A stretch of DNA of 15,674 bases, from positions 1 to 15,674 of the forward strand of contig LKUE01000249.1 of the NCBI GenBank assembly GCA_001412365.1, read 5' to 3'. The notes beneath the pieces were generated by a model. It searched no databases. It saw only the letters and a list, made by a program, of their open reading frames with translations, and was not told where the DNA came from. This DNA comes from Desulfuromonas sp. SDB (lineage in GTDB: Bacteria > SDB-A). This document shows, piece by piece, positions 1-15,674 of the stretch (its first letter is position 1; the number at the start of each line of letters is the position of its first letter). The position numbers and the translations under genes are program-made.

Positions 1-189
1 ATTCATTTTTTAGATAAAATAAAATTCTTTTCTTATATATCAATATATGCATTAATGTTTATTTTCATCATTATATTCAATAATTTGATAGTTAGTAATA
101 TACAATATTTTATTATAAGTGGTTGTATTTTTAGTTCAATTGTAACTTTTTGTATTTACAAATTCTCAAAGTTGATGTTTAAAAATTAA
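1..189 (+). CDS. C-terminal fragment of a polytopic membrane protein, probably a polysaccharide flippase (Wzx-like)
   Basis: Frame 1 is open from the window edge to a TAA at 187-189, giving the last 62 residues of a protein that starts outside. The fragment is strongly hydrophobic with two likely membrane helices (about residues 8-32 and 36-53) separated by a short polar turn, and ends in a short basic tail (FSKLMFKN). This is how 12-14-helix polysaccharide exporters of the MATE/MOP superfamily end, and two GT4 glycosyltransferases follow on the same strand after 63 bp, which is the normal setting for a Wzx flippase that moves undecaprenyl-linked repeat units across the inner membrane. The membrane character is seen directly; the flippase call is inferred from context. 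An O-antigen polymerase or another multi-helix transporter would look the same at this length. Confidence 0.55.
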   Translation: MHFLDKIKFFSYISIYALMFIFIIIFNNLIVSNIQYFIISGCIFSSIVTFCIYKFSKLMFKN

Positions 190-252
190 GTAATTTTTTC
201 GAATTAATTTAATTTTCACATTAAATAGTAATTTAAGAAAAGAAATTTAATT

Positions 253-1356
253 ATGCACACAGATAAAAGGAATAAAAGAATAGAATTATTAGAAATATTA
301 AATCATGCAAAAATAGCTGGAACAGAGAGACATGTTTTATTATTAGCAACAAATCTGGATAACAATCTTTTTAATACTTCTATTTGTACTTTTGAAAATG
401 GTGATTTAGTTAATAATCTAAAAAAAAATATAAATATCAAAACAAAAGTAATCTCATATAGAAAACGATTTATACATTTTTATAGACTTATAAAGTTTCT
501 TAGAAATTCTAATTTTGATCTTATTCATTCTCATTCTGGAGGATATGCTTGTATTGCGGGTAAAATAGCAGGTATAAGAAGAATTATTTATACAAAACAT
601 GGAGTTGGTTTTACAAAAAAAGAACTTGATAATCTAAATATTAAAACGAAAATTTCTTCAATAGTGGTTGATAAATGTGTTAATCATTATATTGCTTTAA
701 CTAAAAATGATAAAAATACATTAATAAAGTATTTCAAGATTAAACCTAATAAAATTTCTGTTATTCCTAACGGAATAGATATTTCCTTTATTGATAATGT
801 AAAAAAAGAAGAAAGTAAGGAAATTATCATTGGTACAGTAACAAGATTAATGCCTCAGAAGGGATTGAAATATTTTATTAAAGCAATTCCAAGAATTTTA
901 AATTATAATTCTAAGATTAATTTTAAGATTGCTGGTACTGGATCTCAAAAAGGAGAACTAGTACTTCTTGCTAATAATCTAAAAATTAAAAACAAAATAG
1001 ACTTTTCCGGATATATTACTGATGTTGCAAACTATATTAACAATTTAGATATTTTTATCTTACCTTCAATTTGGGAAGGATTTCCCTATGTTCTATTAGA
1101 AGCAATGATTTTAAAAAAACCTATTATTACTACAGATATTTTTGGAATAAATGAAATTATTAAAAATAATCATCAGGGTATTTTAGTAAAACCTTATAAT
1201 CATAAGCAAATAGCTGATTCTGTAATTAAACTATTGAAAGATTCTAAGCTAGCAAGATATCTAGGTGAATCTGCTTATAGAAAAGTATTAAAAAATTATA
1301 CATTAGATAAAAATGTAAAATCTATTCAATCACTTTATTTAAAAATTTTAAAATAA
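253..1356 (+). CDS. Glycosyltransferase family 4 (GT-B fold)
   Basis: A cytoplasmic retaining glycosyltransferase of 367 aa, the usual GT4 length, expected to add one sugar from a nucleotide donor to a lipid-linked glycan. The N-terminal acceptor lobe has the AGTERHVLLLA segment (residues 22-32, the place of the glycine-rich loop) and DLIHSHSGG (89-97). The donor lobe has VIPNGID (170-176), GTVTRLMPQKG (194-204, with the phosphate-contacting R198 and K203) and the EX7E motif E275-E283 in WEGFPYVLLE, followed by KKPIITTDIFGINEII. No signal peptide or membrane helix is seen. The start is the first ATG after a purine-rich stretch (AAGAAAAGAAA), with no clear Shine-Dalgarno. It is followed one base later by a second GT4 gene, so both probably belong to one operon with the upstream membrane protein. 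The base composition is extremely AT-rich and lysine/isoleucine/asparagine codons dominate. Family is secure; donor and acceptor cannot be told. Confidence 0.93.
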   Translation: MHTDKRNKRIELLEILNHAKIAGTERHVLLLATNLDNNLFNTSICTFENGDLVNNLKKNINIKTKVISYRKRFIHFYRLIKFLRNSNFDLIHSHSGGYACIAGKIAGIRRIIYTKHGVGFTKKELDNLNIKTKISSIVVDKCVNHYIALTKNDKNTLIKYFKIKPNKISVIPNGIDISFIDNVKKEESKEIIIGTVTRLMPQKGLKYFIKAIPRILNYNSKINFKIAGTGSQKGELVLLANNLKIKNKIDFSGYITDVANYINNLDIFILPSIWEGFPYVLLEAMILKKPIITTDIFGINEIIKNNHQGILVKPYNHKQIADSVIKLLKDSKLARYLGESAYRKVLKNYTLDKNVKSIQSLYLKILK

Positions 1357-1357
1357 T

Positions 1358-2491
1358 ATGAAAATTGCAGTAAACTTTGCATATTATGGAGAAAAAAGTG
1401 GAGGATTGGGAGAATATATATATAATTTATGTAAAAATCTTTATTTCTTAGATAAAAAAAATAAATATATCTTTTATATCTCTTTAGATCAGGAAGAATA
1501 TTGGAAAACAAAATTACCATTTATAAAAAATTATAAAATTATTCCCTTTAAAATACATGAGAGAACTAAAAGATCTTTATTTCAAAACTCTTATTGGAAA
1601 AAAGAAGAATACTTAGAAAAATTTGATGTTTTTCATTCTCCCTTTTTCCACTTACCTCATTGTATAAAATGTAAAAAAATAATTACATTTCATGATTTAA
1701 GGCTTAAAAATTTTCCTGAAACATATAAATTTAGAAGAAGAGTATTTCTTGAATATGCTATTAGAAAATCATTAAATATTGTAGACAAGATAATTACTGT
1801 TTCAGAATTCACAAAAGATGAATTGATTAAATTTTATAATATTTCTGAAAATAAAATTATTCCAATTCATGAAGGTATTGATTATCAAAGATTTAATATT
1901 GATAATATTACCCAAGATTATGAGAATAAATTACTAAATAAATTTAATCTTAATAAAAAAAATTATATACTAACAGTTGGACACTTAGAGCCTAGAAAGA
2001 ATTTATTGAGACTAATAATTGCTTTTAAAAAACTTAGAAAAGTTTGTGATAAAATTGATTATTTAGTTATCGTGGGTAAAAAAAATTTTAAATATAAAAA
2101 AATTTTAAATGAAATAAACAAAAATAAAGATTCCATTATTCATTTAGATTTTGTCCATAATAATGATTTGAATATTTTATATAAAAATGCAAAAGTGTTT
2201 GTATTTCCTTCAATCTATGAAGGTTTTGGTTTTCCTCCTTTGGAAGCAGCAATATTTGGTATTCCTAGTGCTGTAAGCAAAACTTCTTCTATGCCCGAAA
2301 TCTGTGAAGATGCTGTGTTATATTTTAATCCATTTAATACAGAAGATATAAAAAGTAAAATCTTAATGTTATTGAATAACAACTCATTATATAACGAGTT
2401 AAAAATTAAAGCACAAAATAATCTTAAAAGATTTAGTTGGGAAAAAAATGTAATTAAAACAATTGATGTTTATAATGAAACATATCAATAA
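1358..2491 (+). CDS. Glycosyltransferase family 4, mannosyltransferase-like
   Basis: A second GT-B retaining glycosyltransferase of 377 aa, probably acting in the same lipid-linked oligosaccharide pathway. The N-lobe begins MKIAVNFAYY with GGLGEYIYNL (15-24), the form seen in GT4 enzymes that transfer mannose or related sugars to O-antigen units. TFHDL (110-114) is the H-D element after the first beta-alpha units. The donor lobe shows GHLEPRKN (208-215, R213 and K214) and EX7E as E288-E296 in YEGFGFPPLE, followed by GIPSAVSKTSSMPEI, the usual nucleotide-sugar loop. Only one base separates its ATG from the stop of the preceding GT4 gene, so it is likely translationally coupled. Its TAA at 2489-2491 overlaps the stop of the converging deacetylase gene. 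Mannosyl specificity is suggested only by overall sequence style and remains unproven. Confidence 0.93.
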   Translation: MKIAVNFAYYGEKSGGLGEYIYNLCKNLYFLDKKNKYIFYISLDQEEYWKTKLPFIKNYKIIPFKIHERTKRSLFQNSYWKKEEYLEKFDVFHSPFFHLPHCIKCKKIITFHDLRLKNFPETYKFRRRVFLEYAIRKSLNIVDKIITVSEFTKDELIKFYNISENKIIPIHEGIDYQRFNIDNITQDYENKLLNKFNLNKKNYILTVGHLEPRKNLLRLIIAFKKLRKVCDKIDYLVIVGKKNFKYKKILNEINKNKDSIIHLDFVHNNDLNILYKNAKVFVFPSIYEGFGFPPLEAAIFGIPSAVSKTSSMPEICEDAVLYFNPFNTEDIKSKILMLLNNNSLYNELKIKAQNNLKRFSWEKNVIKTIDVYNETYQ

Positions 2492-3222
2492 TCACTTAAA
2501 ACTGCTCTTTTAAAAGACATTGGATACAAATTATACTTAGTTATCAATAATTCAGTTATTCTTTTAAAATTTTCCGGGGTTACTTCTTTATCATTATATC
2601 CTAACCTATGAAATAATATAAAAACATAATCTTCGTTCCTGATCAATGCTAATTCTATTCTCCTTTTTGTAGACTCGACACTATTTTTCGATGGAACCAC
2701 AAAGCAACCCAAATGAGTAAAGTCTAAGGGTTTTTCCCAAAATCTATCATCAGTATCTCGTACATATTTATAGTATTCACTGGCAATATTTCGAATTCTT
2801 TCATTACAAACTCCACAGGGAAAGGCAAAATTTGAAGGATAAAATCCCATTTCAAATAAAGAATCTCGAGAAGTTTTAAGTTCGTATCTTATCTCTTGTT
2901 CGGTTAATAAAGTCATAATCGGGTGATTCATAGTATGAGAGGCAATTTCCCAGTTATTATTCTGCATTTCCAACAATTGGTCTAAATTGCAGTAGTTTGA
3001 ATCTTTATTAATTGTTTTTACAATAACAAAAGTAGTTGCAGAAAGTTCAATATTATATTCTTGCTCTAAAGACTCAAAAAAATTAAAAACAATTATATAA
3101 TCAGTTATATTGTTATCATCAAACATATAAACAACTTTTAAATGAGGTGTTTTCTGTTGCTGACTACATCCAATAAAAAATAGGATTAAAAACAATATTC
3201 TTTTTCTATATAACCTTGACAT
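2485..3222 (-). CDS. Polysaccharide deacetylase (NodB-fold) lipoprotein
   Basis: A likely membrane-anchored, metal-dependent carbohydrate esterase 4 enzyme that removes N- or O-acetyl groups from a polysaccharide outside the cytoplasm. The start MSRLYRKR is basic, residues 9-18 are hydrophobic, and FFIGC places the lipidated cysteine at 19. NodB motifs are visible: YMFDD (D35-D36, in place of TFDD), SHTMNHP with H96 and H100 for metal binding, NFAFPCG (131-137, replacing the R-x-P-Y-G loop), and ILFHRLG with H205 near the C-terminus. At 245 aa it is a minimal catalytic domain. The start codon lies inside the 3' end of the upstream barrel-like gene (37 bp overlap), suggesting translational coupling; no strong Shine-Dalgarno precedes it. 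It is the last gene of the long minus-strand set and ends tail to tail with a glycosyltransferase. Substrate is unknown; the setting favours the extracellular polysaccharide over peptidoglycan. Confidence 0.85.
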   Translation of the reverse strand: MSRLYRKRILFLILFFIGCSQQQKTPHLKVVYMFDDNNITDYIIVFNFFESLEQEYNIELSATTFVIVKTINKDSNYCNLDQLLEMQNNNWEIASHTMNHPIMTLLTEQEIRYELKTSRDSLFEMGFYPSNFAFPCGVCNERIRNIASEYYKYVRDTDDRFWEKPLDFTHLGCFVVPSKNSVESTKRRIELALIRNEDYVFILFHRLGYNDKEVTPENFKRITELLITKYNLYPMSFKRAVLSDY

Positions 3223-4145
3223 CTTAATAGTAAATTTTCTGAATTTTCATATCCACTAGATATTGAAACATTATTTCTGTTAACATTATAAACAAAACCT
3301 AATACTAATGAATATCGAGTCAAGTTTTTAACTGTTTCTCTGAAATAATAATTCCCCCCAATAAATACATACAATTCATCATTAACTTTATAGTTAATCT
3401 TAGAAGAAGAATATAAAAAATCATTTTCTCTCATTTCACCTTCAAAATAGGGGCTTGTATTTGAATAGTAACAATCTCCTTCGAAATTTAATGAATTAAC
3501 AGGTAATTGTATTCTTATCCATAAATCATTAGAAATAATTTTTTTTTCATAATGACATATTTTACAATCCATGCCAGTTTTAATTGCCCAATATTCTAAT
3601 TCTAATCCCATAATATGTGTATGATATGAAGATGTTTGATCATCTCTACCGGAAAAAATATAAAAAGGAGAATATTTAATTGTTCCTAAACTAGGCTTGA
3701 ATCTTATTAATCCAAAGAACTTTCTTTGACTTCTCCCTCCGAAGGTCAAACTGAATATTTTCCATTTATAATTAAATCCAAAAATATTCCCAGGATTATA
3801 TCGTCCACAATATGGGAAAATATGATACTTTGCACTAGCAATTGAAGGAAAATATCCTCCAAATTCAGGATTAATCAAACCAAATAAAAATCCATTCTTT
3901 TTATAATAAATTTCATTCAATGTTAGATTAATATTTGGCTCTTCATATATTGGCTTGAGGGAAATTAAGACATCTTCAAAATTAATATTAAAGACTCCAT
4001 AAAAATCTTCAAAACTTTCCTGCTTAGAATTATCTGATAGCTCTTGGTATTCTTTTTCAGCTTCTAATATATAATAAAAACTATAATTTATATTACAATT
4101 TTCATTTGTTAAATTACTAATAAAAAATAATAGAAATAATACCAT
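3186..4145 (-). CDS. Exported beta-rich protein, probable outer-membrane beta-barrel, function unknown
   Basis: I do not recognise a family. The 319-aa product starts with a short hydrophobic stretch (VLFLLFFIS) compatible with a signal peptide, although no basic residue precedes it. Residues 20-65 are acidic and may be helical. From about 66 to the end the sequence alternates polar and aromatic or aliphatic residues with frequent glycine and tyrosine, as in transmembrane beta-strands (FLFGLINPEFGGYFP; YVFIGGNYYFRE; SLVLGFVYNV), and it ends in phenylalanine, as many BAM-assembled barrels do. A CKICH motif (C194-H198) matches the heme c signature CxxCH but is probably fortuitous. The ATG lies 2 bp after the TAG of the upstream glycosyltransferase, with TAGGT upstream as a modest ribosome site. 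It overlaps the deacetylase gene by 37 bp. Position suggests an outer-membrane part of polysaccharide handling; this is inference. Confidence 0.75.
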   Translation of the reverse strand: MVLFLLFFISNLTNENCNINYSFYYILEAEKEYQELSDNSKQESFEDFYGVFNINFEDVLISLKPIYEEPNINLTLNEIYYKKNGFLFGLINPEFGGYFPSIASAKYHIFPYCGRYNPGNIFGFNYKWKIFSLTFGGRSQRKFFGLIRFKPSLGTIKYSPFYIFSGRDDQTSSYHTHIMGLELEYWAIKTGMDCKICHYEKKIISNDLWIRIQLPVNSLNFEGDCYYSNTSPYFEGEMRENDFLYSSSKINYKVNDELYVFIGGNYYFRETVKNLTRYSLVLGFVYNVNRNNVSISSGYENSENLLLRCQGYIEKEYCF

Positions 4146-4147
4146 TT

Positions 4148-5266
4148 CTAATTACCTATAAGCTGATTTATAGCATCCAAATATTTATTAATTACTATAA
4201 TTTCATCAAATTGATCTTCAATTTTTTTCCTACTATTTTCACCCATTTTAATTCTCTGCGTTTTTGTTAATTTTAACATTTTTTCCATCTTATTAGCCAA
4301 ATCTAAAGGATCTTTTAATTTACATAAAAATCCATTCTTATTATTGTCTACAACTTCTTTACACCCTATAGTATTTGTAGTAATCAGTGGCTTTCCCATT
4401 GCTGCTGCTTCTAAAAGAGATCTTGGAGTTCCCTCTCTATAAGATGGTAAAACAACACAATCTGAATCTCTAATATATTTTTTAACATTGTTTGTTGTGC
4501 CTAGATATTTAATCACCCCATGTTTTTCCCAATTAATAATATCGTTATACCTAATACCAGAAACATTCTCATAATCCAAAGGACCAAGTAACTGAAATTC
4601 GGCTAAATAACCTTTATCTAGTAATATTTTAGCAGCATCAACAAATTCTTTAATTCCCTTATCATATATCATCCTGCTAATTAACAAGAATATAAAATTT
4701 GATTTTATATTTTCCTTTGGTATTGGAGTAAATTTTTTTAAATTTACTCCTGAACCAGGTAAAAGATCTGCCTTATTCACATTTAATAATTTTAATTTTT
4801 CAGTAAATAATATTAAATCATCTGAATTTTGAAAAAACACAATAGAAGCAAATTGCTGTGAAAATTTATATAGTTTCTTGGATATTGCAGTTAATAAATT
4901 TGGTCTTATAAATAAAGTAGCTAAACCAGTTATATTATTCACTGTTGGAATTCTTAATAATCCAGCTGCAATTGATCCGTATATTACGGGTTTAACTGTA
5001 AAATGTAAAATTAAATCTGGTTTTGTTTTATTATAAATGCTTAGATATTTTATAAACAATTTTACTTCTTCTAAAGGATTAAATCCTCTACGATTCAAAC
5101 TATAATGATAATGAATGCATCCCAAACCAATTAATTTATTTGTAAAATAATCATTTGGAGCGACTGTTATAACTTGATAACCATTAGATTGTAATAATTC
5201 AATCAGTTCTTTCCTGAAATTATAAATGTACCAGGATGTATTGTAGGTAATAGCAACTTTCTTCAT
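4148..5266 (-). CDS. Glycosyltransferase family 4, PglA/CapM-like
   Basis: A cytoplasmic GT-B enzyme of 372 aa that probably transfers an N-acetylated hexosamine or similar sugar to an undecaprenyl-linked acceptor. It begins MKKVAITYNTSWYIYNFR, and DLILHFTVKPVIYG (84-97) followed by NITGLATLF (111-119) is the signature of the GT4 subgroup that includes PglA (GalNAc to diNAcBac-PP-undecaprenol) and CapM. The donor lobe has LLISRMIYDKG (194-204, R198 and K203) and EX7E as E278-E286 in REGTPRSLLE, followed by GKPLITTNTIGCKEVV. Transcription is opposite to the other two GT4 genes, and it sits between the glycoside hydrolase (150 bp upstream) and the barrel-like gene (2 bp downstream). A possible weak promoter (TTGATT, 17 bp, TATATT) lies just upstream, at 5309-5281. 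Family is clear; the exact sugar is not. Confidence 0.92.
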   Translation of the reverse strand: MKKVAITYNTSWYIYNFRKELIELLQSNGYQVITVAPNDYFTNKLIGLGCIHYHYSLNRRGFNPLEEVKLFIKYLSIYNKTKPDLILHFTVKPVIYGSIAAGLLRIPTVNNITGLATLFIRPNLLTAISKKLYKFSQQFASIVFFQNSDDLILFTEKLKLLNVNKADLLPGSGVNLKKFTPIPKENIKSNFIFLLISRMIYDKGIKEFVDAAKILLDKGYLAEFQLLGPLDYENVSGIRYNDIINWEKHGVIKYLGTTNNVKKYIRDSDCVVLPSYREGTPRSLLEAAAMGKPLITTNTIGCKEVVDNNKNGFLCKLKDPLDLANKMEKMLKLTKTQRIKMGENSRKKIEDQFDEIIVINKYLDAINQLIGN

Positions 5267-5280
5267 AATTATAAGGAATT

Positions 5281-5309
5281 AATATAAAGAATTAATCTAA
5301 TTTAATCAA
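5281..5309 (-). promoter_or_regulatory. Possible sigma-70-like promoter before the minus-strand glycosyltransferase
   Basis: Read on the minus strand, TTGATT (5309-5304), a 17 bp spacer and TATATT (5286-5281) match the -35/-10 layout at 4/6 and 5/6 bases. This is the largest gap in the minus-strand set (about 150 bp), so a separate promoter for the last three genes would make sense. Against it, the DNA is very AT-rich, so such matches arise by chance, and the implied untranslated leader would be only about 8 nt. The rest of the 5267-5416 gap shows no gene, repeat or convincing terminator. Confidence 0.2.
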
Positions 5310-5416
5310 TGTAAAATTAATAATTTCCTAACTGTTGAATATTTCCGGATTATAAATTATAAAATATATTTATTCCTGATTTTTATTGAGAAAGATTTAA
5401 ATTGTTCATAAATTGA

Positions 5417-6865
5417 TTAATTATCAGTTGTAAATTGCCTAAAATAAATAAAAGAACTATATGGAATTGGATCATGTAGAATTATATTACCTTTGTATAC
5501 TGAACAAGGTCGATACATATGACTGTAATCGGTTATTGGGGTTATATGATCAGGATAATTGTAATCACATAAACTCCAAATGAATATTTTCTCTAACCAA
5601 TCTCTCGACTCTTTTGAAGATTCCTCAATTAATTTCGCCATTCTAGATATGATTACTGAATCAGCAAATCCACCAAAATTTTCATAATTATCATTATAGG
5701 GATAATTTATCCTATAATTAAACCAATTCCTTTGCCATCCGATTTCTGTCAACCATACAGGTTTGTAATCGCCATCTTTACCATATCCAAGTGAATCTAG
5801 AATTTGTCTAAGTCTATCTAATTCTACCATTAAAGTATCAATATTAACTCGATTAAGCTTATCAGGATTAAATATATCAATATAACCATGTACTGAAATT
5901 ACATCAAAGCATTCTAATACTCCAAGGTCATTTAAATATCCCCAGAAACTTTCTGGTGCGTTAAAATCGCGGAATAAATGAATATATTTCTTATTTTCAA
6001 TATCAAAAATCAAAGCAGTATCCCATCTTTGGCATAAAGGAGTAGATACTGCTGGACCAACAATTTTTACATTTTGATTATAATTAGTTGCATCTCTAAT
6101 TGATTTAGCAGAAATTTTAATATATCTAGCATATTGATCAATTGAAATATGTTCGCCAAAAAAAATCGTATCACCATTATATACGCGGAAAGTATCAATG
6201 TACCCTCCCCACCCAAGAAATTCTAAATTTTCCGGTTCATTACATATTTCCCAATATAGTACTGGTTCATTTAATGGATAGATGCCTAATAAATTTACAT
6301 ACTCATTATATGAAGTATATAATGAACAAACTTGCCCCCAGGGGGTCATTATAAATTTATTTAAATTAATATACCTTTCAGCTAAAACTCGCCAATACCA
6401 ATAATAACCGGAATCACATCCGAAATACTTTATTACTGTATCATTACGAGATGTGATCGATGTAATATTATCATTATAGTATCCTATTGGATATGTGCAG
6501 ATAAAAGGGATCATGTCTCTATCTTGTATCCATTTAATTGCTGCATCAAATCTAAGTAAGCCTGTTTCCCAAAATTTTGGATGCTCACTTCTATAAGCAA
6601 GTGCTTGTAAATCTTCCCTGGCTCCTATTCTGACATGTATCCAATTTGCATTAATACTTTTTAATGAATCTAATTTAGGTATAAAATGATTATACCACAT
6701 CGGATGAGGAGATTTTTTATCAATAAAAGTTGAATCATAATAAAATTCATAGGGTTGCCAAATTATATTGAAAAATAAAGGACATTCTGTATTGGAATTT
6801 ATGTTTTGAGTTGTAATTATAAAATGAAAAAATAAATATAATACTAATAATTTAATATTTTGCAT
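5417..6865 (-). CDS. Exported TIM-barrel glycoside hydrolase, clan GH-A type (PslG-like in general plan)
   Basis: A secreted or periplasmic glycosidase that probably cuts a polysaccharide by the retaining two-glutamate mechanism. Counting from the GTG at 6868 (483 aa), residues 1-25 form a signal peptide (KLLVLYLFFHFIITT). NWIHVRIG (75-82) fits an early barrel strand, LYWEICNEPE (204-213) carries the acid/base glutamate E211 in the N-E-P motif, SVHGY (325-329) follows a middle strand, and VWLTEIGWQ (371-379) carries the nucleophile E375. IFIWSLCDY (428-436) fits the last barrel strand. I prefer the ATG at 6865 (482 aa) over the adjacent GTG at 6868; both give the same signal peptide, and only a weak AAAG precedes them. 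A hydrolase of this clan (PslG, GH39) sits in the Pseudomonas Psl exopolysaccharide operon, and the neighbours here fit a similar role. The exact GH family (5, 39 or unassigned) is not resolvable by eye. Confidence 0.82.
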   Translation of the reverse strand: MQNIKLLVLYLFFHFIITTQNINSNTECPLFFNIIWQPYEFYYDSTFIDKKSPHPMWYNHFIPKLDSLKSINANWIHVRIGAREDLQALAYRSEHPKFWETGLLRFDAAIKWIQDRDMIPFICTYPIGYYNDNITSITSRNDTVIKYFGCDSGYYWYWRVLAERYINLNKFIMTPWGQVCSLYTSYNEYVNLLGIYPLNEPVLYWEICNEPENLEFLGWGGYIDTFRVYNGDTIFFGEHISIDQYARYIKISAKSIRDATNYNQNVKIVGPAVSTPLCQRWDTALIFDIENKKYIHLFRDFNAPESFWGYLNDLGVLECFDVISVHGYIDIFNPDKLNRVNIDTLMVELDRLRQILDSLGYGKDGDYKPVWLTEIGWQRNWFNYRINYPYNDNYENFGGFADSVIISRMAKLIEESSKESRDWLEKIFIWSLCDYNYPDHITPITDYSHMYRPCSVYKGNIILHDPIPYSSFIYFRQFTTDN

Positions 6866-6930
6866 CACACTTTATTTATGAATCATTGTTAATATTAAAT
6901 AACAAAATTAAAAAATAATCAATATATTCC

Positions 6931-8277
6931 TTAGAAAAGATAAAAAATGTTCATCTCTAGTAATAATTTATCTTTATAATTTACACCATCAAAATTATTT
7001 AGATATTTTACATATTGACCTTCGATATCAAAAGATATATTCCGAAATTTAATCCTGATTTCATCAATTAGATAAAATTTCTTTTCAATATTTCCATAAG
7101 GCCAGGGTGGATTAGGTTTATGTTCAAACGTCCAGGGATCTGATAAATTATGGGGACCTTGTTCGGTATAACCAAATAAACTGGATATATGATAAGATTC
7201 AGATCTATAGGATATTTCAAACTTACCATCCCAAAAATTATTACCTAATTGATGTCCTACACAGGTATCGTTTCTGTAAAATCCATTAATTTCTTCATTT
7301 AGATGATAACTGTAATGGGCATAGGTATATGGAGAAACTCCGGATAATTCAAAGCATAAATCAAGGTTGTCAATATTTGCTAAATTATAAACATCTATCC
7401 CTAAAAGAAAACCAAGTTTTTCAGGAGGTTCTGGGGGAGTAAAAGAAACATCATCTACCATCCCTTGAATATAAAACCGGTATTTATTTCCCAAAAGGAG
7501 TTGAACATCGGCTCCTCCCAGAACATTATCAGGTCTTTCCCCATAGTACCTTTGAATTAAGTAATAAGGACTTACCGGTGTTAGATAATATTCTCCCGTT
7601 CTATCACTCCATACTACTGCTTCATTTAATCCAAATAATATCTTACCTGAAAACAAAGAAAATTCTAACCTTTGAGCAGCTAAGTACTTTTTATTTTTTG
7701 AATACAGAGGGGTTATTATATTTTCAAAATGTACTCTATCTCCATGATACGAAATTCTCAGCATATCATAAGAAAGGTTCTCCGCTAAAAACACTGAAGA
7801 AAAATTTCCCGGTCCCCAAAATATTCTATTTCTGCCTAATTCAATTTTCAGTCTGTCATTATGGTAGTAAACATAGAAATTTTCCAAAGGTATCTCAAAA
7901 CCAGGAGTAAAGCCTACGATCTTCTGTTCATCGGTCTTCCCCCCTTCATGGCCAAAATGAAAATAACCTAATCCTACTGCCCCATAATATTCTGAAGGTC
8001 TTAAATGTAAAGCTACTGGAATATCAATTTGATAACTGAAATCTTCATCAATATAGATTCCTTTTAAATTGATTCCAGTTAAATAATTGATTTGAATTGA
8101 ATCATAATAAAAATTATTTGAATATCTAAGTAGATCAATAGGGAAACATTGACTGGTTAATGTTCTATTGTATACAATATTATATTTCCTTTGGTCCCGG
8201 AAATTATCTAGATAATCATTCGGATATAGATAATAAGACTGGGGAAAATTACATATCAGTGATAATAACAATAACAA
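6931..8277 (-). CDS. Wzi-like outer-membrane capsule-assembly protein
   Basis: A predicted outer-membrane beta-barrel of 448 aa. The key sign is IELGRNRIFWGPG (145-157), which matches the conserved G-R-x-x-x-x-W-G-P-G segment of Wzi-type proteins; Wzi in E. coli helps attach group 1 capsule to the cell surface. Further support comes from NVLGGADVQL (251-260), strand-like alternation throughout, and an aromatic C-terminus (LLLEMNIFYLF) typical of barrels inserted by BAM. The start is a TTG: GAGG lies 6 bases upstream and an in-frame TAA sits two codons before it, leaving no room for a longer version. The signal peptide core (LLLLSLICNF) lacks basic residues ahead of it, which is odd. It follows the giant surface-protein gene by 61 bp and precedes the glycoside hydrolase by about 65 bp. 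Wzi-like membership is fairly secure; attachment of a capsule is inferred from the family. Confidence 0.8.
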   Translation of the reverse strand: MLLLLSLICNFPQSYYLYPNDYLDNFRDQRKYNIVYNRTLTSQCFPIDLLRYSNNFYYDSIQINYLTGINLKGIYIDEDFSYQIDIPVALHLRPSEYYGAVGLGYFHFGHEGGKTDEQKIVGFTPGFEIPLENFYVYYHNDRLKIELGRNRIFWGPGNFSSVFLAENLSYDMLRISYHGDRVHFENIITPLYSKNKKYLAAQRLEFSLFSGKILFGLNEAVVWSDRTGEYYLTPVSPYYLIQRYYGERPDNVLGGADVQLLLGNKYRFYIQGMVDDVSFTPPEPPEKLGFLLGIDVYNLANIDNLDLCFELSGVSPYTYAHYSYHLNEEINGFYRNDTCVGHQLGNNFWDGKFEISYRSESYHISSLFGYTEQGPHNLSDPWTFEHKPNPPWPYGNIEKKFYLIDEIRIKFRNISFDIEGQYVKYLNNFDGVNYKDKLLLEMNIFYLF

Positions 8278-8338: not shown

Positions 8339-8599
8339 TTATCTCACCACCATGAACTTCCCGGTTTCAGTTAAATAATCGGATTCCAAGCGGTAGAAGT
8401 AGATGCCTGATCTTTCTGATCTAAAGGGAATCTGATGGATGCCGGGAGAAAGAGTTCCGGAGATAGGCGTCTCCACCAGCCTTCCGGAGAGATCGTAAAC
8501 CTTAAGGATCAACTCACTCCCAGCAGGAATTGAAAACATAAAACTAACTTCTCCCCTATCTTCATAGGATAGTCGGTAGGAGAATTTATCGGGAACAGA
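8339..8599 (-). repeat. Copy 1 of a duplicated 3'-terminal segment encoding the sorting domain
   Basis: The last 86 codons plus stop of this giant gene match 12214-12474 at the DNA level without gaps. By hand count they differ at about 41 of 258 bases (84% identity), and in the 123 bases nearest the stop at only about 9 (93%). Identical runs include the 20-mer CCGGGAGAAAGAGTTCCGGA. G+C here is in the mid-40s percent, above the surroundings. The segment encodes the T9SS-like tail. Confidence 0.85.
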
Positions 8600-11500
8600 A
8601 GATATTTCTTCTTCTACTGAGGTAGGATCAACTGTAAAACTCCATATATTTGACCAGGAGCTTTCAAAACCAATATGATCATAAGCCTTAACCCTCCAGT
8701 AATATACGTCTGCAGGGAAAGTATAATATATATATTTTGTGGTATCAAAAACATCATATTGGTGTAAAGATACTGATAAATTACTGTCCAGTGCCCACTG
8801 TAATTGATAATAATCAACTCCGGGAAAGCTATCATAAGATGGATGCCAAAAGAAATTTACCGTACTATTGCTGTATCCTGCACTGTCCGGAGATATCAAC
8901 ACAACTTTCTCTGGATGGGTAGTATCACAGATCCCATTTAAATAAACATAATATGATGGGAAAAATGAATCACTTAAAAATACCTGCAATGAACATTGAT
9001 AATAGCCAAATGAATCCGGTTTATACATAATCTCAACTACTGATGAATCTCCAGGTTGGATAGTATCGGGATTTACATAATTGATTATTGAATATTCAGA
9101 CAGGGGTAAAATTAAACTATCTACGATAAGTTCTTGATAAGAGACATTATTAATTTTAAAATTCAATGTGCTTGAATCTCCAGGAGCTAATATTCCAAAA
9201 TCCAGTAAAGTATCGGATAAATACTGCCTAATTGATTGAAATTGATAGATATTACAATCGACATTGGACCCGTAAACTTCTATGAATCCGTCATTATTGC
9301 CATCTCCTACTTCTACACTTCTCATCGGACTACTGCCTGATCCTATATCACTAATAATCCAGCTAATACCGTTCCATGTTAATTCATATATATGACCGTT
9401 GCTGCAAGCTCCGTAAACCTCATTCATCCCGTCATTATTACCATCTCCAATATCTACACTACTCATATCAGCAATAGGGGAGTTGAGTTCACTAATTATC
9501 CAGATAGATCCTGTCCATCTAAATTGATATAGCATTCCATTGCTAGAAGCTCCATATATCTCATTCAATCCATCATTATCACCGTCTCCAACTTCTACCC
9601 AGTTATCTCCACCATATCCCATTTCAGTGATTTCCCAATTAGGATTTATCCACCTGACTTGATAAATATATCCATCGCGATCTGAAACATATGCTTCCAG
9701 AATTCCATCGTTATTACCATCTCCAATGGCAATGCATGTAAGATGATCAACTCCTAGGTTACCTAAATAATCTACATCCCAGCTAAATCCATTCCAATTG
9801 AACTTATAGATCTGTTGATCCCAATGAACTCCATAGACATCTGTTACTCCATCGTAATCTAAATCTCCTAAATCTACCCCGGTAATTGTTGAATTTGATA
9901 AAATCCCGAAATTTACTGTATCCCAGGTTATACCATTCCATTGAAATTGAAATACCTGCCCGTGGGAAAATGCGCTGTATATACCTAATTTACCATCATT
10001 ATTCCCGTCACCAACAACTGCTTTTCTAGCATGCTGAGATAAACAAAAATATACTTCAGTATAAACCCAAGCAATTCCATTCCAGTCTAATTGATCGATG
10101 AAACTTCCATCAATTAAACTGGTTCTTGCACAATAAATTTCCATTTCACCGTCAATATCACCATCGCCTATGGTAATCCCCTGTGCAGAAGAGGTATATG
10201 ATCCAATTACTGCTCTCTGCCAGCAATAATCTGTACTCTCCAGTAATTGGTTGACTGTAAAACACATATCCAAAGTATCTGAATTAACTAACAGATTATA
10301 GGTAACTGGTAATTCACCAGTTAAGTCAAAATCACAGGTGAGATAATTATCACTTTGAATGGAAATATTATTAGCGTAAATACTTGGATATCCTTCTTTC
10401 TGCAATTCAATAGAAGATACTCCCAGGTAAAATCCATCCCCGAAAATTTTAACTGAACTGGTTCCATTATTGGTGGCAGAATGAGGATAAATATCTGTTA
10501 CTGCACAAGAATATTCTCCCCTGCCGGTTAATTTTAAATATATAACCGGGAAATAAGGATCATTAATATACACTTGAGCTGAACAGGAATAAAATCCAAT
10601 ATTCAGAGGTTTGAATAATATACTTGCTAATACTGAATCTCCGGAATACAGAGTATCCGGAGTTGAGTAATTTAATAAAGAATATCCTGAGATTGGAAAA
10701 ATAATGCTATCCACAATAAGATCTTGATAGGATACATTTTCTATATAAATGTCCCAAATTGCTGAATCTCCTATACACATTTTACCAAAATCATGAATTG
10801 TGTCGGTTAAATAGGCTGGTTGAATCTGATATTGGTATAAGCGTCGGTCAGAAGTAACATCTTTAAAAAAAACATAAATATCTATAAAACCATTGTTATC
10901 AGCATCTCCTGAACAAATTCCTGCAATTTCATAACAATCCCTTAATTCAAGATTAGTTGAATTCCATTGTTCTGAAATCCACTTATGCTGAAATAGACTG
11001 TCATTTAAAGAGCTGTAAATTTCCATGCCACCATCATTATTACCATCCGCTATGGTAATAAAATCCGAATTGGCAATTACAGTTTGATTCCAACTACCCC
11101 CATCCCATTGAAATTGGCTTAAAATATAATCACCTGAATAAATTTCATTTGATCCGGAATTATCCCCATCCCCAAATGAAATTCTCCAATGGTCAGTTCC
11201 ACCAACAATTGTGGTTCTAACCCATTCACTCCCATTCCACTTATTTTGGTCTATTCGTCCACCACAAGCATAAACTTCTAATTCCCCATCATAATTACCA
11301 TCACCAACTACTACTCCGTCATTTTTATGCCCATGATAAACACCTCCCATACTATCAACGTTCCAACCACCGCCATCCCATTTTAATTGATAAAGTTGTT
11401 CTGAGAATGAGTAGCTCTTAAAGTAAATCTCATGTTCTCCATTATTATTTCCATCTCCAATGGTCAATGATTTAGGAGACCAATCACATAAACAAATAAT

Positions 11501-12136
11501 CAACTTATTCCAATAATTCCCATCCCATTTAAGCTGGTAAATACAATTATCTTCACATCCGGCATATATTTCTTGCTGTCCATCATTATCTGCATCTCCC
11601 ACTGCTAAAGAAATCATTAAATCATTACCATAGCCAATATCATTAATTTCCCAGGTTGAACCATTCCATTTGCACTGATAAATATGAGTTAGAGCAAGGA
11701 AATAAAGTTCCAGTTGTCCATCATTATCTGCATCACCAATTTGTGCATTTGGTACACCAAACCAATAATCTTGATATTCATGAATATCAATAATTTTCCA
11801 TATTGTTTCAGAATACCGGTGATTAACCGTAAAGCACATTTTTAATGTATCTGAATTAATTACGAGATTATAGGTAGTCATAAAAACTTCATCTAAATCA
11901 AAATCACAGGTTAGGTAATTATCTGCTTGGACATTGATATTTGAAGCATAAATACTGGGATAACCAGATTTCTGCAGTTCTACAGAACTAACTCCGGAAT
12001 TAAAGCCGCCCCCGTATATCTTCACCGGCTTAACCCCATCATTAGTCCCCGACTGGGGCCAGATATGGGTTACTGAGGAATGGATATTAAAAGTGCATAG
12101 TATTAAGATTAACAAGGATACTAAATAATATTTCAT
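8339..12136 (-). CDS. Giant secreted two-propeller surface protein with TIG, HYDIN-like, FN3-like and T9SS-type sorting domains
   Basis: A 1265-aa exported protein. In order: signal peptide 1-20; TIG domain 21-105; seven repeats 115-440; HYDIN/ASPM-like Ig domain 441-541 (LTDTIHDFG, then GDS, then FKPLNIGFYSCS); TIG 544-630; seven repeats 640-970; HYDIN-like 971-1070; FN3-like 1075-1170 (VYYWRVKAYD, WSFTVD); C-terminal sorting domain about 1180-1265 (KVYDLSGRLVET, SGIYFYRLE, KFMVVR). Each repeat of about 45-50 aa pairs a calcium-type loop (IGDGNNDGxxEIY, as in integrin FG-GAP/VCBS blades) with IYQxxWNGxxW, so seven-bladed propellers are likely. The sorting domain resembles type A signals of type IX secretion, predicting export to the cell surface. 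GGGAGGG lies just before the ATG. A paralogue with the same plan lies 77 bp upstream. The ligand is unknown; glycan or protein adhesion is the natural guess. Domain calls are by eye. Confidence 0.9.
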   Translation of the reverse strand: MKYYLVSLLILILCTFNIHSSVTHIWPQSGTNDGVKPVKIYGGGFNSGVSSVELQKSGYPSIYASNINVQADNYLTCDFDLDEVFMTTYNLVINSDTLKMCFTVNHRYSETIWKIIDIHEYQDYWFGVPNAQIGDADNDGQLELYFLALTHIYQCKWNGSTWEINDIGYGNDLMISLAVGDADNDGQQEIYAGCEDNCIYQLKWDGNYWNKLIICLCDWSPKSLTIGDGNNNGEHEIYFKSYSFSEQLYQLKWDGGGWNVDSMGGVYHGHKNDGVVVGDGNYDGELEVYACGGRIDQNKWNGSEWVRTTIVGGTDHWRISFGDGDNSGSNEIYSGDYILSQFQWDGGSWNQTVIANSDFITIADGNNDGGMEIYSSLNDSLFQHKWISEQWNSTNLELRDCYEIAGICSGDADNNGFIDIYVFFKDVTSDRRLYQYQIQPAYLTDTIHDFGKMCIGDSAIWDIYIENVSYQDLIVDSIIFPISGYSLLNYSTPDTLYSGDSVLASILFKPLNIGFYSCSAQVYINDPYFPVIYLKLTGRGEYSCAVTDIYPHSATNNGTSSVKIFGDGFYLGVSSIELQKEGYPSIYANNISIQSDNYLTCDFDLTGELPVTYNLLVNSDTLDMCFTVNQLLESTDYCWQRAVIGSYTSSAQGITIGDGDIDGEMEIYCARTSLIDGSFIDQLDWNGIAWVYTEVYFCLSQHARKAVVGDGNNDGKLGIYSAFSHGQVFQFQWNGITWDTVNFGILSNSTITGVDLGDLDYDGVTDVYGVHWDQQIYKFNWNGFSWDVDYLGNLGVDHLTCIAIGDGNNDGILEAYVSDRDGYIYQVRWINPNWEITEMGYGGDNWVEVGDGDNDGLNEIYGASSNGMLYQFRWTGSIWIISELNSPIADMSSVDIGDGNNDGMNEVYGACSNGHIYELTWNGISWIISDIGSGSSPMRSVEVGDGNNDGFIEVYGSNVDCNIYQFQSIRQYLSDTLLDFGILAPGDSSTLNFKINNVSYQELIVDSLILPLSEYSIINYVNPDTIQPGDSSVVEIMYKPDSFGYYQCSLQVFLSDSFFPSYYVYLNGICDTTHPEKVVLISPDSAGYSNSTVNFFWHPSYDSFPGVDYYQLQWALDSNLSVSLHQYDVFDTTKYIYYTFPADVYYWRVKAYDHIGFESSWSNIWSFTVDPTSVEEEISSVPDKFSYRLSYEDRGEVSFMFSIPAGSELILKVYDLSGRLVETPISGTLSPGIHQIPFRSERSGIYFYRLESDYLTETGKFMVVR
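9227..10219 (-). repeat. Seven tandem propeller blades (second propeller of the downstream giant protein)
   Basis: Residues 640-970 hold seven units, each with a GDxxxxDG loop: GDGDIDG, GDGNNDG, GDLDYDG, GDGNNDG, GDGDNDG, GDGNNDG, GDGNNDG. The first six are followed by a [WH]-rich strand with WNGxxW or a variant (WINPNW, WTGSIW); the seventh ends in IYQFQSI before the HYDIN-like domain. The period is about 140-160 bp. In the DNA the loop recurs as CATCATTATTnCCATCTCC-like strings (plus strand). Confidence 0.85.
10817..11794 (-). repeat. Seven tandem propeller blades (first propeller of the downstream giant protein)
   Basis: Residues 115-440 hold seven units with loops GDADNDG, GDADNDG, GDGNNNG, GDGNYDG, GDGDNSG, ADGNNDG and GDADNNG. 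Blades 1-6 carry W-[ND]-G-x-x-W or a variant (WISEQW in blade 6); the seventh ends in LYQYQIQ and runs into the HYDIN-like domain. The loops are less regular than in the second propeller, with one lost leading Gly (IADG) and N or S at the fifth loop position in three blades. Confidence 0.82.
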
Positions 12137-12141
12137 ACCAC

Positions 12142-12146
12142 CCTCC
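12142..12146 (-). promoter_or_regulatory. Strong ribosome binding site of the downstream giant gene
   Basis: Minus-strand GGAGG, inside GGGAGGGTGGT, lies 5 bases before the ATG at 12136. It is the best Shine-Dalgarno match in the window; most other genes here have weak or no such site. It supports both the start codon and high expression. Confidence 0.65.
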
Positions 12147-12213
12147 CACTTATATTTAATTATCTGTCTTTATTTAAAATATATCAATAAATGCAATATC
12201 TTAAATTAAAGAA

Positions 12214-12474
12214 TTATCTCACTACCATGAACTTCCCGGTTTCAGTTATATAATCGGATTCCAGTCGATAGAAGTAGATGCCTGATCTTTCTGATCGGAA
12301 GGGGATCTGATGGATACCGGGAGAAAGAGTTCCGGAAAGGGGAGTATCTACCAACCTTCCGGTCAGATCGTAGACCTTTATAGTCAATTCACTCCTGGTG
12401 GAAATTGAAAACATAAAACTAACCTTCCCCCTTTCTGTATAAGTTAGCCGGTAGGAAAATTTATCAGGAATGGA
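12214..12474 (-). repeat. Copy 2 of the duplicated 3'-terminal sorting-domain segment
   Basis: Partner of 8339-8599. Ends in the same SGIYFYRLESDY and TETGKFMVVR peptide stretches with only conservative changes between the copies. The similarity begins near the PDKFSYRL peptide and runs through the stop codon; the 77 bp after this stop and the 61 bp after the other show only a few shared bases, so the repeated unit ends with the gene. Confidence 0.85.
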
Positions 12475-15400
12475 GGAAATCTCCTCTTCCACTCCAGTAT
12501 AATCTACGGTAAAACTCCACACCTCCGACCATGGACTCTCTATACCCAATGAATCCCTCATCTTCACTCGCCAGTAATATAAAGATTCGGGTAAATCCTC
12601 CAAGAATAAAGTAGTGTCATCCGTTATATGATACTCATACATAGAAATAGTAAAATTACTGTCTAAAGCATACTGTAATCTGTACCAAAGCAAACTAACT
12701 GTATCAAGGGAAGGATGCCAGATGAAATTAACTGTATTATTACTATATCCTCCATTCTCAGGATAGATTAGATACACTGGGGTAGGACATATTGAATCAC
12801 ATATCCCAAATAAGCTTAAATGGTGAGTTGGAAAAAGGCTGTCACTTAGAAATATCTGCAATGAACACTGACTATAGCCCATGGAATCCGGCTTAAACAT
12901 AATACTAACTTCAGCTGAATCTCCGGGAACAATAGTGTCAGGTAATTCATTATTTACCAGGGAATATTCCGATAAGGAGATTATTAAGCTATCTATGATA
13001 ATTTCCTGAGTATTAACATTTTTGACAATCAAATTCCAGATAGATGAATCACCGGGAGATGAATATATTGTGTGTATTGTATCGGATAAATATTTAGGGA
13101 CAATTTTTAATTGATGAATATTTCTACCACCACCACCATAAATTTCTAACAAACCATCATTATCTCCATCCCCTATGTCGCCAATACCGCAATACGCATA
13201 ACCAAAGTTTGTTTTTATCCAACTATTATCAATCCACCTGAATTGGTAGATATAATCATCAGTATAGTTAAATTGAGCAGGTATGTAAATTTCTTCAATT
13301 CCATCATTGTCTGCATCTCCTATTGACATAGCATAAGAATGATCACTGACAAAAGATCCTAAAATTGTTTTAGTCCAAGAATAACCATTCCAATCAAATT
13401 GGTAAATTGTTGTATTTCCACCAGCTCCGTAAACTTCAATTTCTCCATCATTATCTACATCTCCTAAAGCCAATGCCCTCATAGGAATATTGCCATAACC
13501 AATATCAGTTGAAATCCAACTACTACCACCCCATTCAACCTGATAGATATGAGCATTATCAGAGGCAATGTAGATTTCTAGCTGACCATCATTATCACCA
13601 TCTCCAATTTCAAAATCATTTAAATCGCCATCTACTATTACTCCAAGATCAACTTTATTCCAAGCTATTCCATCCCATTTGAATTGATATAAATGTCCCG
13701 ACTCAGTAATTGCATAAAGTTCTAAATGACCGTTATAATCACAATCTCCAAAATCAATTTGTTCAAGATCATGAATCCCACCACAATAACCTACAAAGAC
13801 TGTATCCCATGAATATCCATTCCATTTAATTTGATATATATTTGAATAAGTTGTATAATCGTAAATTTCTATTATCCCATCATTATCAACATCTCCGATT
13901 CTGGTTCGGTTTAAACTATACTCATCAATAAAACAAATTTCTGTTATTGACCAATTAGTTCCATTCCAAAATAACTGGTCAATATGCCCTCCTGTTCGGG
14001 AACCATACACCTCTAACTCATCATCATGATTTCCATCTCCGATTGATACTCCATGTTCACTTGATATACCCAATTCAATATTGGTATGATAAAAAAAGTA
14101 ATCGCTGTATCCAAGAAAGTAATTTACCGTAAAACACATATCCAATGTATCTGAATTCACTACTAAATTGTAAGTGGTTGGAAACACTCCGTTTAAATCA
14201 AAATCACATACAAGACAATTATCACTTTGTACTTGTATATTAGTTGCATAAATACTAGTATATCCTAATTTTTGCAATTCTACAGCAGATATTCCTGAGT
14301 TAAAACCATTCCCGAAAATCTTAACTGTTTTTATATCATTATTAGTAGCTGCTGGAGGATAAATATCAGTTACTGAACTTAAATAATCACCCATCCCTGT
14401 CAATTTTAAGGATATTATTGGAAATACTGGATCATTACAGTAAATTTGAACTGAACAGGGATAAAATCCAATATTTTGCGGTTTAAACATAATATTAATA
14501 GCAGATGAATCACCTGGAAGAATAGTATCCGGGATAGAGTAATTTAATACTGAATATTCAGGCAATAAAATAACTATACTGTCAACAATAAGATTTTTAT
14601 ATAATACATTGTTTAAATATAATACCCACATTGATGAATCTCCAACATTTATTATATCAAAATTATATGAAGTATCAGATAAATATGCTGGGATAGTCTG
14701 ATAATGATATATATTACATTCATTATTGCCTTGAAAAACAGCACATATGTTTAATAATCCATTATTATCAATATCAGCAATATAAACACCTTTTACTCCA
14801 TATCCTGGTGGTCCTTGCCTTCCCAAATCTGTAATTTCAAATGGATATGTATTGATCCATTTTAATTGATAAAGATTTTCACAATAATTCGTATAAAGTT
14901 CAAATTCTCCATCATTATTTCCATCTCCAATTGTTAATTCAAATGGATTACTACTTCCTCTTAATACTGTTTGTTTATTCCAATTATAACCATCCCAATA
15001 GTACTGATAAATCCATCCATACTCATTAAGTTCATATATTTTTAGTTTATTTTCACTTTTCCCATCTCCAATTGCTATTGCTATAACATCTTTATTGTCA
15101 TAAGCAACAGTATCTCTATCCCAAGTATTTCCATTCCATACATATTGATATATTGTCCACCAATGGAAACCGTATATTTCAATATTCCCATCATTATTTC
15201 CATCTCCAATGATAATTTCACTTCCCCCATAATAACCTACAGTATCTATGTCCCATAAATTCCCAGTCCACTTATATTGATATATCAAATTATTATGCAT
15301 ACTATATAATTCAAATTCCCCATCATTATTACCATCTCCCACAATAATTTTTGCACCTAAACCACTTGCTACAGTATCTTTTAACCAATTACTCCCGTTC

Positions 15401-15674
15401 CATTCAAATTGATAAATAATCCCATCGCTGCATAGTCCATAAAGTTCAAATTCTCCGTCATTATCCCCATCTCCAATGGTTATTGATAGCATTACTTTAT
15501 CAATACTTCCATATCCAACAACATAAATTTCCCAGTTATTCCCTGTCCATTTATACTGATAGATATGGTTATCATTATATCTTTTTGCACAACAATAAAT
15601 ATCTAATTGTTCATCATTATCCCCATCTCCGATAACTATATCAGAAAAAAAAAGCTGAGGATAATCACCAATAT
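12214..15674 (-). CDS. Giant secreted two-propeller surface protein, paralogue of its neighbour (5' end beyond the window)
   Basis: The reading frame is open from the right edge (first full codon at 15672) to a TAA at 12214, 1152 residues. The ATG at 15492 is internal: the 60 codons before it encode another blade (VIGDGDNDEQLDIY, then IYQYKWTGNNW). Numbering from that ATG: seven blades (one before it, six at 1-268); HYDIN-like 269-369; TIG 372-460; seven blades 461-799; HYDIN-like 800-900; FN3-like 904-997; sorting domain 1007-1092. Compared with the downstream paralogue, only the signal peptide and first TIG domain, about 115 aa, should be missing. HYDIN domain 1 resembles HYDIN 1 of the paralogue (NIGFYPCS) and HYDIN 2 resembles HYDIN 2 (GYSQCSLQ), so the two-module plan predates gene duplication. 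Predicted role is a surface-displayed, calcium-stabilised adhesin or glycan-associated protein; not proven. Confidence 0.88.
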   Translation of the reverse strand, partial: IGDYPQLFFSDIVIGDGDNDEQLDIYCCAKRYNDNHIYQYKWTGNNWEIYVVGYGSIDKVMLSITIGDGDNDGEFELYGLCSDGIIYQFEWNGSNWLKDTVASGLGAKIIVGDGNNDGEFELYSMHNNLIYQYKWTGNLWDIDTVGYYGGSEIIIGDGNNDGNIEIYGFHWWTIYQYVWNGNTWDRDTVAYDNKDVIAIAIGDGKSENKLKIYELNEYGWIYQYYWDGYNWNKQTVLRGSSNPFELTIGDGNNDGEFELYTNYCENLYQLKWINTYPFEITDLGRQGPPGYGVKGVYIADIDNNGLLNICAVFQGNNECNIYHYQTIPAYLSDTSYNFDIINVGDSSMWVLYLNNVLYKNLIVDSIVILLPEYSVLNYSIPDTILPGDSSAINIMFKPQNIGFYPCSVQIYCNDPVFPIISLKLTGMGDYLSSVTDIYPPAATNNDIKTVKIFGNGFNSGISAVELQKLGYTSIYATNIQVQSDNCLVCDFDLNGVFPTTYNLVVNSDTLDMCFTVNYFLGYSDYFFYHTNIELGISSEHGVSIGDGNHDDELEVYGSRTGGHIDQLFWNGTNWSITEICFIDEYSLNRTRIGDVDNDGIIEIYDYTTYSNIYQIKWNGYSWDTVFVGYCGGIHDLEQIDFGDCDYNGHLELYAITESGHLYQFKWDGIAWNKVDLGVIVDGDLNDFEIGDGDNDGQLEIYIASDNAHIYQVEWGGSSWISTDIGYGNIPMRALALGDVDNDGEIEVYGAGGNTTIYQFDWNGYSWTKTILGSFVSDHSYAMSIGDADNDGIEEIYIPAQFNYTDDYIYQFRWIDNSWIKTNFGYAYCGIGDIGDGDNDGLLEIYGGGGRNIHQLKIVPKYLSDTIHTIYSSPGDSSIWNLIVKNVNTQEIIIDSLIISLSEYSLVNNELPDTIVPGDSAEVSIMFKPDSMGYSQCSLQIFLSDSLFPTHHLSLFGICDSICPTPVYLIYPENGGYSNNTVNFIWHPSLDTVSLLWYRLQYALDSNFTISMYEYHITDDTTLFLEDLPESLYYWRVKMRDSLGIESPWSEVWSFTVDYTGVEEEISSIPDKFSYRLTYTERGKVSFMFSISTRSELTIKVYDLTGRLVDTPLSGTLSPGIHQIPFRSERSGIYFYRLESDYITETGKFMVVR
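13096..14112 (-). repeat. Seven tandem propeller blades (second propeller of the upstream giant protein)
   Basis: Residues 461-799 (numbered from the internal ATG at 15492) hold seven units with loops GDGNHDD, GDVDNDG, GDCDYNG, GDGDNDG, GDVDNDG, GDADNDG and GDGDNDG. The first six pair with W-[NDGI]-[GD]-x-x-W strands (WNGTNW, WNGYSW, WDGIAW, WGGSSW, WNGYSW, WIDNSW); the seventh ends in IHQLKIV before the HYDIN-like domain. Period about 145 bp. Confidence 0.84.
14689..15674 (-). repeat. Seven tandem propeller blades (first propeller of the upstream giant protein, at the window edge)
   Basis: Seven units are visible: one in the 60 codons before the internal ATG (GDGDNDE) and six after it (GDGDNDG, GDGNNDG, GDGNNDG, GDGKSEN, GDGNNDG, ADIDNNG). 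The fifth (15034-15069) has lost the acidic loop residues. Seven matches the other three propellers, so this one is probably complete in the window. Confidence 0.8.

Follow-up and report, generated by a model that had tools for sequence, protein, structure and literature searches.

Twin proteins of Desulfuromonas sp. SDB with T9SS sorting tails and paired, predicted seven-bladed beta-propellers

Introduction

The core of the VCBS supercluster of beta-propellers is made up of prokaryotic proteins with a signal sequence, which often carry several propellers and Ig-like domains, and not all members of the supercluster have the GW motif of loop DA' (Pereira and Lupas 2021, PMC8023676). A closed seven-bladed ring is also found in the single-domain PLL/PHL lectins of Photorhabdus (PMC6943638, PMC5584973), and the polar sugar pocket of PHL consists of an Arg, a Glu, a stacking Trp and a further Trp (PMC5584973). 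PorZ of Porphyromonas gingivalis is exported by the T9SS and combines two seven-bladed propellers with a sorting domain, but its rings are packed together with one chain-spanning closure, and it is part of the secretion machinery (PMC5121618). The integrin alpha propeller, from a eukaryotic heterodimeric receptor, has seven blades with DxDxDG calcium loops.

Two adjacent genes of Desulfuromonas sp. SDB, encoding the proteins P0001 and P0002, had been predicted from the DNA sequence to specify twin surface proteins of a plan not previously described. The twins resemble the VCBS core (PMC8023676) in having an FG-GAP_3 match above cut-off, the AB-loop DxDxDG and CD-loop G..W motifs, a signal peptide, and multiple propellers with Ig-like domains, though the DA' loops of the twin family, unlike those of the GW-bearing propellers, are without GW. 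They share the predicted closed ring with the PLL/PHL lectins, their best solved sequence relatives, but those proteins have neither Ig spacers nor a sorting tail. The order TIG, seven blades, HYDIN with a T9SS tail was not found described in a literature search. However, the plan is not as singular as was first thought, as the doubled module with a tail is also present in the protein L063 of another bacterium, single-module paralogues occur in the same genome, and the VCBS core (PMC8023676) and PorZ (PMC5121618) are already described. The twins are therefore a well-resolved member of an established class of proteins and do not define a new one.

Results

Genetic context of the twin genes

The window, i.e. 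the whole stretch of DNA analysed (15674 bp), is the entire contig C249 of a 3.14 Mb genome in 433 contigs. The twin genes lie in tandem on the minus strand among its open reading frames, 77 bases apart, and all coordinates below refer to features on this strand. P0001 (coordinates 8339–12136) is complete with 1265 aa, and P0002 (coordinates 12214–15674) is open at its 5' end because the gene runs off the end of the contig, leaving 1152 aa readable and the N-terminus cut.

The missing start probably lies at the end of a second contig of the same genome, C181, where a terminal open frame (L053:6902-7256) that runs to the contig end at 7256 encodes a signal peptide and a TIG domain with 72% identity to residues 1–114 of P0001. 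Comparison of the contig ends showed that C181 closes with the six bases that open the reversed window, and that the reading frame is kept across them. So short an overlap says little by itself, but position, frame and domain add support, and the end of C181 is probably the start of P0002, including the first TIG domain that had been predicted to fall outside the window. Joined to this frame, P0002 would have about 1269 aa. A broken gene was rejected as the reason for the short P0002, given that the window is a full contig and that C181 probably holds the missing start.

The next gene downstream (coordinates 6931–8277, minus strand) encodes a Wzi-like capsule assembly protein (PF14052, 43.7 bits; cut-off 30.1) and not a propeller protein, and three GT4 glycosyltransferases and a polysaccharide deacetylase were also identified in the window by profile matches. 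Promoter scores across the locus were slightly above those of shuffled sequences and terminator scores were not above them, thus operon structure was taken from spacing and strand alone.

Domain organization

The architecture of the twins is near certain. P0001 begins with a signal peptide, read by eye (residues 1–20, MKYYLVSLLILILCTFNIHS; coordinates 12077–12136), followed by a TIG-like domain (residues 21–105; 11822–12076), a propeller (residues 107–442; 10811–11818) and a HYDIN-like Ig domain (residues 443–541; 10514–10810). The same three domains are then repeated as a second TIG-like domain (residues 545–632; 10241–10504), propeller (residues 637–972; 9221–10228) and HYDIN-like Ig domain (residues 973–1072; 8921–9220), and the protein ends with a tentative FN3-like segment (residues 1073–1168; 8633–8920) and a T9SS type A sorting domain (residues 1176–1265; 8342–8611). 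The readable part of P0002 consists of propeller 1 (residues 1–330; 14683–15672), a HYDIN-like Ig domain (14383–14682), the second of its two TIG-like domains (14113–14376), which was placed by alignment with TIG-like domain 2 of P0001, propeller 2 (residues 524–862; 13087–14103), a second HYDIN-like Ig domain (12799–13086), a tentative FN3-like segment (12508–12798) and a T9SS type A sorting domain (12217–12489). This is the doubled plan with a sorting domain that had been proposed for both proteins.

Pfam profiles for FG-GAP_3 (PF13517; 54.4 bits in one twin and 61.9 bits in the other, cut-off 26.9) and for the HYDIN Ig domain (PF22544; 37 and 34 bits, cut-off 25.5) both passed, and PF13517 matched all 21 aligned rings at E 0.01 or better. 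The PF22544 match covered two stretches in P0001 (37 bits), with HYDIN-like domain 2 matched at residues 974–1056, and two in P0002, the first at residues 332–416. The TIG match (PF01833), that of TIG-like domain 1 of P0001, reached 13.3 bits against a Pfam cut-off of 20.9, and the TIG-like region in the second half of P0001 was modelled as a confident Ig-like beta sandwich. No Pfam FN3 profile matched either twin, the segment in P0002 giving a weak PF25788 match only, and that in P0001 was modelled by AlphaFold2 with block pLDDT of 34–55; the FN3-like label is tentative for these reasons. Hence, of the domain families expected, FG-GAP_3, HYDIN and the T9SS tail exceeded their cut-offs, whereas TIG fell below its cut-off and FN3 was unmatched.

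Predicted export by the T9SS

The sorting domain profile TIGR04183 (NCBIfam; cut-off 23) was exceeded in both P0001 (25.8 bits) and P0002 (28.5 bits), in line with the export tail originally predicted. The genome also encodes SprA_N (62.2 bits, cut-off 27) and five PorV-family genes above cut-off, together with partial matches to the PorU sortase (NF033707), all of them below cut-off. About 120 T9SS sorting tails above cut-off were found in the genome, and with the SprA_N and PorV genes this indicates that the T9SS has many cargoes, the twins among them. The twins would thereby be anchored at the outer surface. The paralogue P0004 carries no sorting tail, hence the T9SS route is not universal in the propeller family.

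Number of blades

The GDxDxDG motif was listed seven times per ring, with a spacing of 41–52 residues. A blade HMM trained on the rings of four proteins of the same genome detected 7+7 blades in P0001, 7+7 in P0002 (28 in the twins), seven in P0003 and seven in P0004, including blade 1 of P0002, a variant (GDGDNDEQLDIY) that the regular expression misses. The two counts agree with the seven blades predicted for each of the four twin propellers. Counts in the own genome are partly circular because the same blades trained the HMM, but those in relatives are independent of the training, and seven blades were found per complete ring in L063 (two rings), L064–L069, L071, L070 (two rings) and L072 (two rings). 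Relatives from about L073 on, which the HMM matched less fully, were left out of the counts. As judged from the sequences, the number seven, constant across the six rings of the own genome and 13 complete rings of relatives, is not due to chance. One extra short match to the blade HMM was seen in L069, far outside the ring.

Ring closure and fold

In every ring, blade 7 stops halfway, after the strand IYQF (HMM positions 1–24), and the stretch preceding blade 1 looks like its missing half. This half-blade was detected directly by the HMM in L063 (twice), L064 and P0004, and the C-terminal end of P0004 falls exactly at the IYQF strand. AlphaFold2, given an alignment of sequences from the window and of loci found in the genome scan, modelled propeller 1 of P0001 (pLDDT 90.8, pTM 0.90) with 28 strands (7 x 4) and with the N-terminal strand completing blade 7. 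The model of the second half of P0001 contained propeller 2, also with 28 strands, and a confident sorting domain beside the TIG-like sandwich, the FN3-like segment being poor. Structure prediction thus returned the seven blades foreseen in both propellers of P0001.

The top fold matches were seven-bladed propellers, among them CRTAC1, aldos-2-ulose dehydratase (AUDH), ITFG2 and integrin alphaIIb. VIA-align gave Z 31.6 for ITFG2 and Z 28.5 for integrin alphaIIb (3nid_C; rmsd 2.8 over 309 residues, at 13–14% identity), and families missing from its lists were not read as excluded. An open tandem array of repeats was rejected, since the blade count is constant, half a blade precedes blade 1 and both models speak against it. 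It is well supported that the four twin rings are closed by velcro, as originally proposed, with seven four-stranded blades each, a prediction that draws on sequence and models for P0001 and on sequence only for P0002.

Self-closure also bears on the resemblance to PorZ, which is itself a T9SS-exported protein with two seven-bladed propellers and a sorting domain (PMC5121618). A PorZ-like accessory or surface-assembly part of the T9SS, with rings that handle the LPS of the cell or the secretion machinery, would suit the Wzi-like gene next to the twins, but is improbable, as PorZ lacks Ig spacers and closes its second ring with its N-terminal strand, whereas each twin ring appears to close on itself. 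In addition, the three relatives of the same family that were compared showed tail matches only to P0001, and propeller matches that were weak and partial, although conservation would be expected of an essential component of the machinery.

AUDH and the rhamnogalacturonan lyases belong to the same supercluster as the twin propellers. The presence of AUDH among the top fold matches would be consistent with a secreted enzyme having a lyase-like or dehydratase-like active site in the propeller. However, no enzyme family was above cut-off on P0001, BetaGal_dom3 matched P0002 over a short stretch that coincides with the repeated GD-rich motif, and conservation falls on the calcium loop and on structural aromatics that recur in every blade, making an enzyme very improbable.

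Loops and candidate ligands

The strict pattern DxDxDG..E was present in 22 of the 28 twin blades (12 of 14 in P0001, 10 of 14 in P0002) and in all seven of P0003. Over 129 blades, the AB loop DxDxDG had D in 100%, D/N in 97%, D in 90% and G in 92%, and the CD loop had G in 77% and W in 97% of the blades reaching that position. Loop entropy was low in AB (1.18 bits) and CD (1.89 bits) and high in BC (3.12 bits) and DA' (3.32 bits), suggesting one face stabilised by calcium and another, variable one for binding. With two rings per protein, the twins can fairly be read as bivalent binders.

When the A3 profile was compared with solved structures, Photorhabdus lectins came first, PLL2 (E 1e-15) and PLL3. 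The relative L066 passed the Fungal_lectin cut-off (PF07938; 31.6 against 25.3 bits), and P0004 gave a weak match to the CV39L lectin family (33.6 bits, cut-off 350). PF07938, which describes six-bladed fungal fucose lectins, had no match in P0001 or P0002, which have seven blades, nor did the PLL/CV39L curated families. The best PDB matches of one relative were designed 'Cake' propellers. The GW motif of the PVL and tachylectin-2 pocket was present in only one of 113 DA' loops. In a HMMER alignment with the PHL polar pocket, the Glu and one Trp were kept, but at the Arg position R occurred in 6% of blades, and at the stacking-Trp position K occurred in 49%, hence the pocket Arg and stacking Trp of the PLL/PHL lectins (PMC5584973) are not kept in the twin family. 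The register of the Arg-Glu-Trp triad of AAL was set by eye only and was not counted as a test. Identification of the twins as lectins by transfer from PLL, AAL or PVL was not accepted, as the pocket motifs are not kept and propeller matches are promiscuous.

The lack of a conserved known sugar pocket also fits rings that work as integrin-alpha-like heads of an adhesin, which would bind a protein in the matrix or on a second cell and not a glycan. As in integrins, calcium-type DxDxDG loops occupy the conserved face with variable loops opposite, the VIA-align scores for integrin alphaIIb and ITFG2 are high, and Ig-type spacers, which are common among adhesins, are present. However, fold says little on ligand, the best solved sequence matches are lectins, lectin families match some relatives, and polysaccharide genes surround the twins, so that a protein-binding adhesin is possible but rather unlikely. 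A glycan as the ligand has close to an even chance, and was ranked ahead of an adhesin only modestly because the lectin profiles and gene context speak for it but the sugar-pocket motifs are not kept and the polysaccharide gene context, found around the twins, is absent around L063.

Relatives and evolution of the doubled module

Two single-module paralogues are encoded in the same genome, P0003 (745 aa), which has Ig and sorting domains, and P0004 (459 aa). The best relatives from the genome scan were mainly from WOR-3/Stahlbacteria bins, and a scan of viral contigs recovered one weak relative, L142. The plan is not unique to the twins, as L063, a protein of WOR-3 bacterium isolate RS_13_48 (JAGLZA010000338.1), carries the doubled TIG-seven blades-HYDIN module and a T9SS tail, with HYDIN domains and tail above cut-off, and differs in lacking the FN3-like segment. 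Blade identity within a ring is 70–81% in L063 compared with 35–40% in the window rings.

The first modules of the twins grouped together in the tree (98/95), as did the second modules (98/97), therefore module doubling preceded gene doubling. Trees joining the L063 modules to the matching twin modules were rejected (AU p 0.018 and 0.0005, somewhat weakened as the groups were picked after viewing a larger tree), indicating that the L063 module doubled independently. On these sequence comparisons, the doubled module appears to have arisen at least twice. Identity between the twins in 60-residue windows was 32–47% in the propellers and 52–65% in the TIG/HYDIN domains, and reached 97% over the final 40 tail residues, divergence being greater in the propellers than in the Ig spacers or tails.

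Discussion

The explanation that we consider probable overall is that the twins are T9SS-displayed, calcium-stabilised, two-headed multivalent binders, most likely of polysaccharide. P0001 and P0002 would be tandem paralogous cargo that leaves the cell via Sec and then the T9SS and is held at the outer surface, each displaying two closed seven-bladed VCBS-type propellers mounted on Ig spacers of the TIG-like and HYDIN-like types. On one face of each ring, calcium is probably held by the DxDxDG loops and makes the ring more rigid, and the variable BC and DA' loops on the opposite face probably contact the ligand, such that two ligand faces per protein would make a two-headed, multivalent binder. 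The likeliest class of ligand would be polysaccharide, be it the capsule or exopolysaccharide of the cell itself, given that the genes lie among polysaccharide genes, or foreign glycans.

A more specific proposal is put forward tentatively and is doubtful. The family may form a distinct VCBS subfamily of WOR-3 and related candidate phyla whose members are double-ring lectins, stiffened by calcium and displayed through the T9SS, with as many as 14 sugar sites per protein, one at each blade interface and all of a new type. In this view the module would have been doubled on two or more independent occasions, and neighbouring copies would differ in their rings while keeping similar spacers and tails.

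The twins alone reveal no new mechanism. Within an uncultured lineage they do connect the large, mostly uncharacterised PF13517 family with a defined pathway of export, and the one-ring P0003 and P0004, the two-ring twins and the independent two-ring L063 form a natural set for the evolution of ring number, closure and specificity.

A polysaccharide locus encoding three GT4 glycosyltransferases, a polysaccharide deacetylase and a Wzi-like protein was found at positions 253-8277 of the window. Within this span, a 483-aa protein (5417-6868) gave no Pfam or NCBIfam matches.

In the propeller rings of the window, blades within a ring share 35-40% identity, whereas those in L063, a WOR-3 bacterium protein with a doubled module, and in L064, another relative with a seven-bladed ring, share 70-81%, and this high identity suggests, at the sequence level, recent blade amplification in these two relatives. 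A further propeller relative (best segment 39% identity, E 8e-11) is encoded by a contig filed as viral (L142; IMGVR_UViG_3300032020_000310).

Four sorting tails are 80-97% identical over their final 40 residues: those of the twin propeller proteins (window 8342-8461 and 12217-12336) and those encoded by two nearby genes of a different type on contig C181 (L053) of the same genome (2747-2866 and 4129-4248). Between the two gene types, the preceding 40 residues share only 35-38% identity. From the sequences, this pattern looks like the product of tail exchange or gene conversion.

Upstream of the probable start of the contig-truncated twin, L053 carries four further genes (145-6872; three of ~450 aa and one of 868 aa) with tails matching the type IX secretion system (T9SS) sorting family. 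Given the probable link between the contigs, the twins would therefore stand last in a series of six putative T9SS cargo genes that share one strand.
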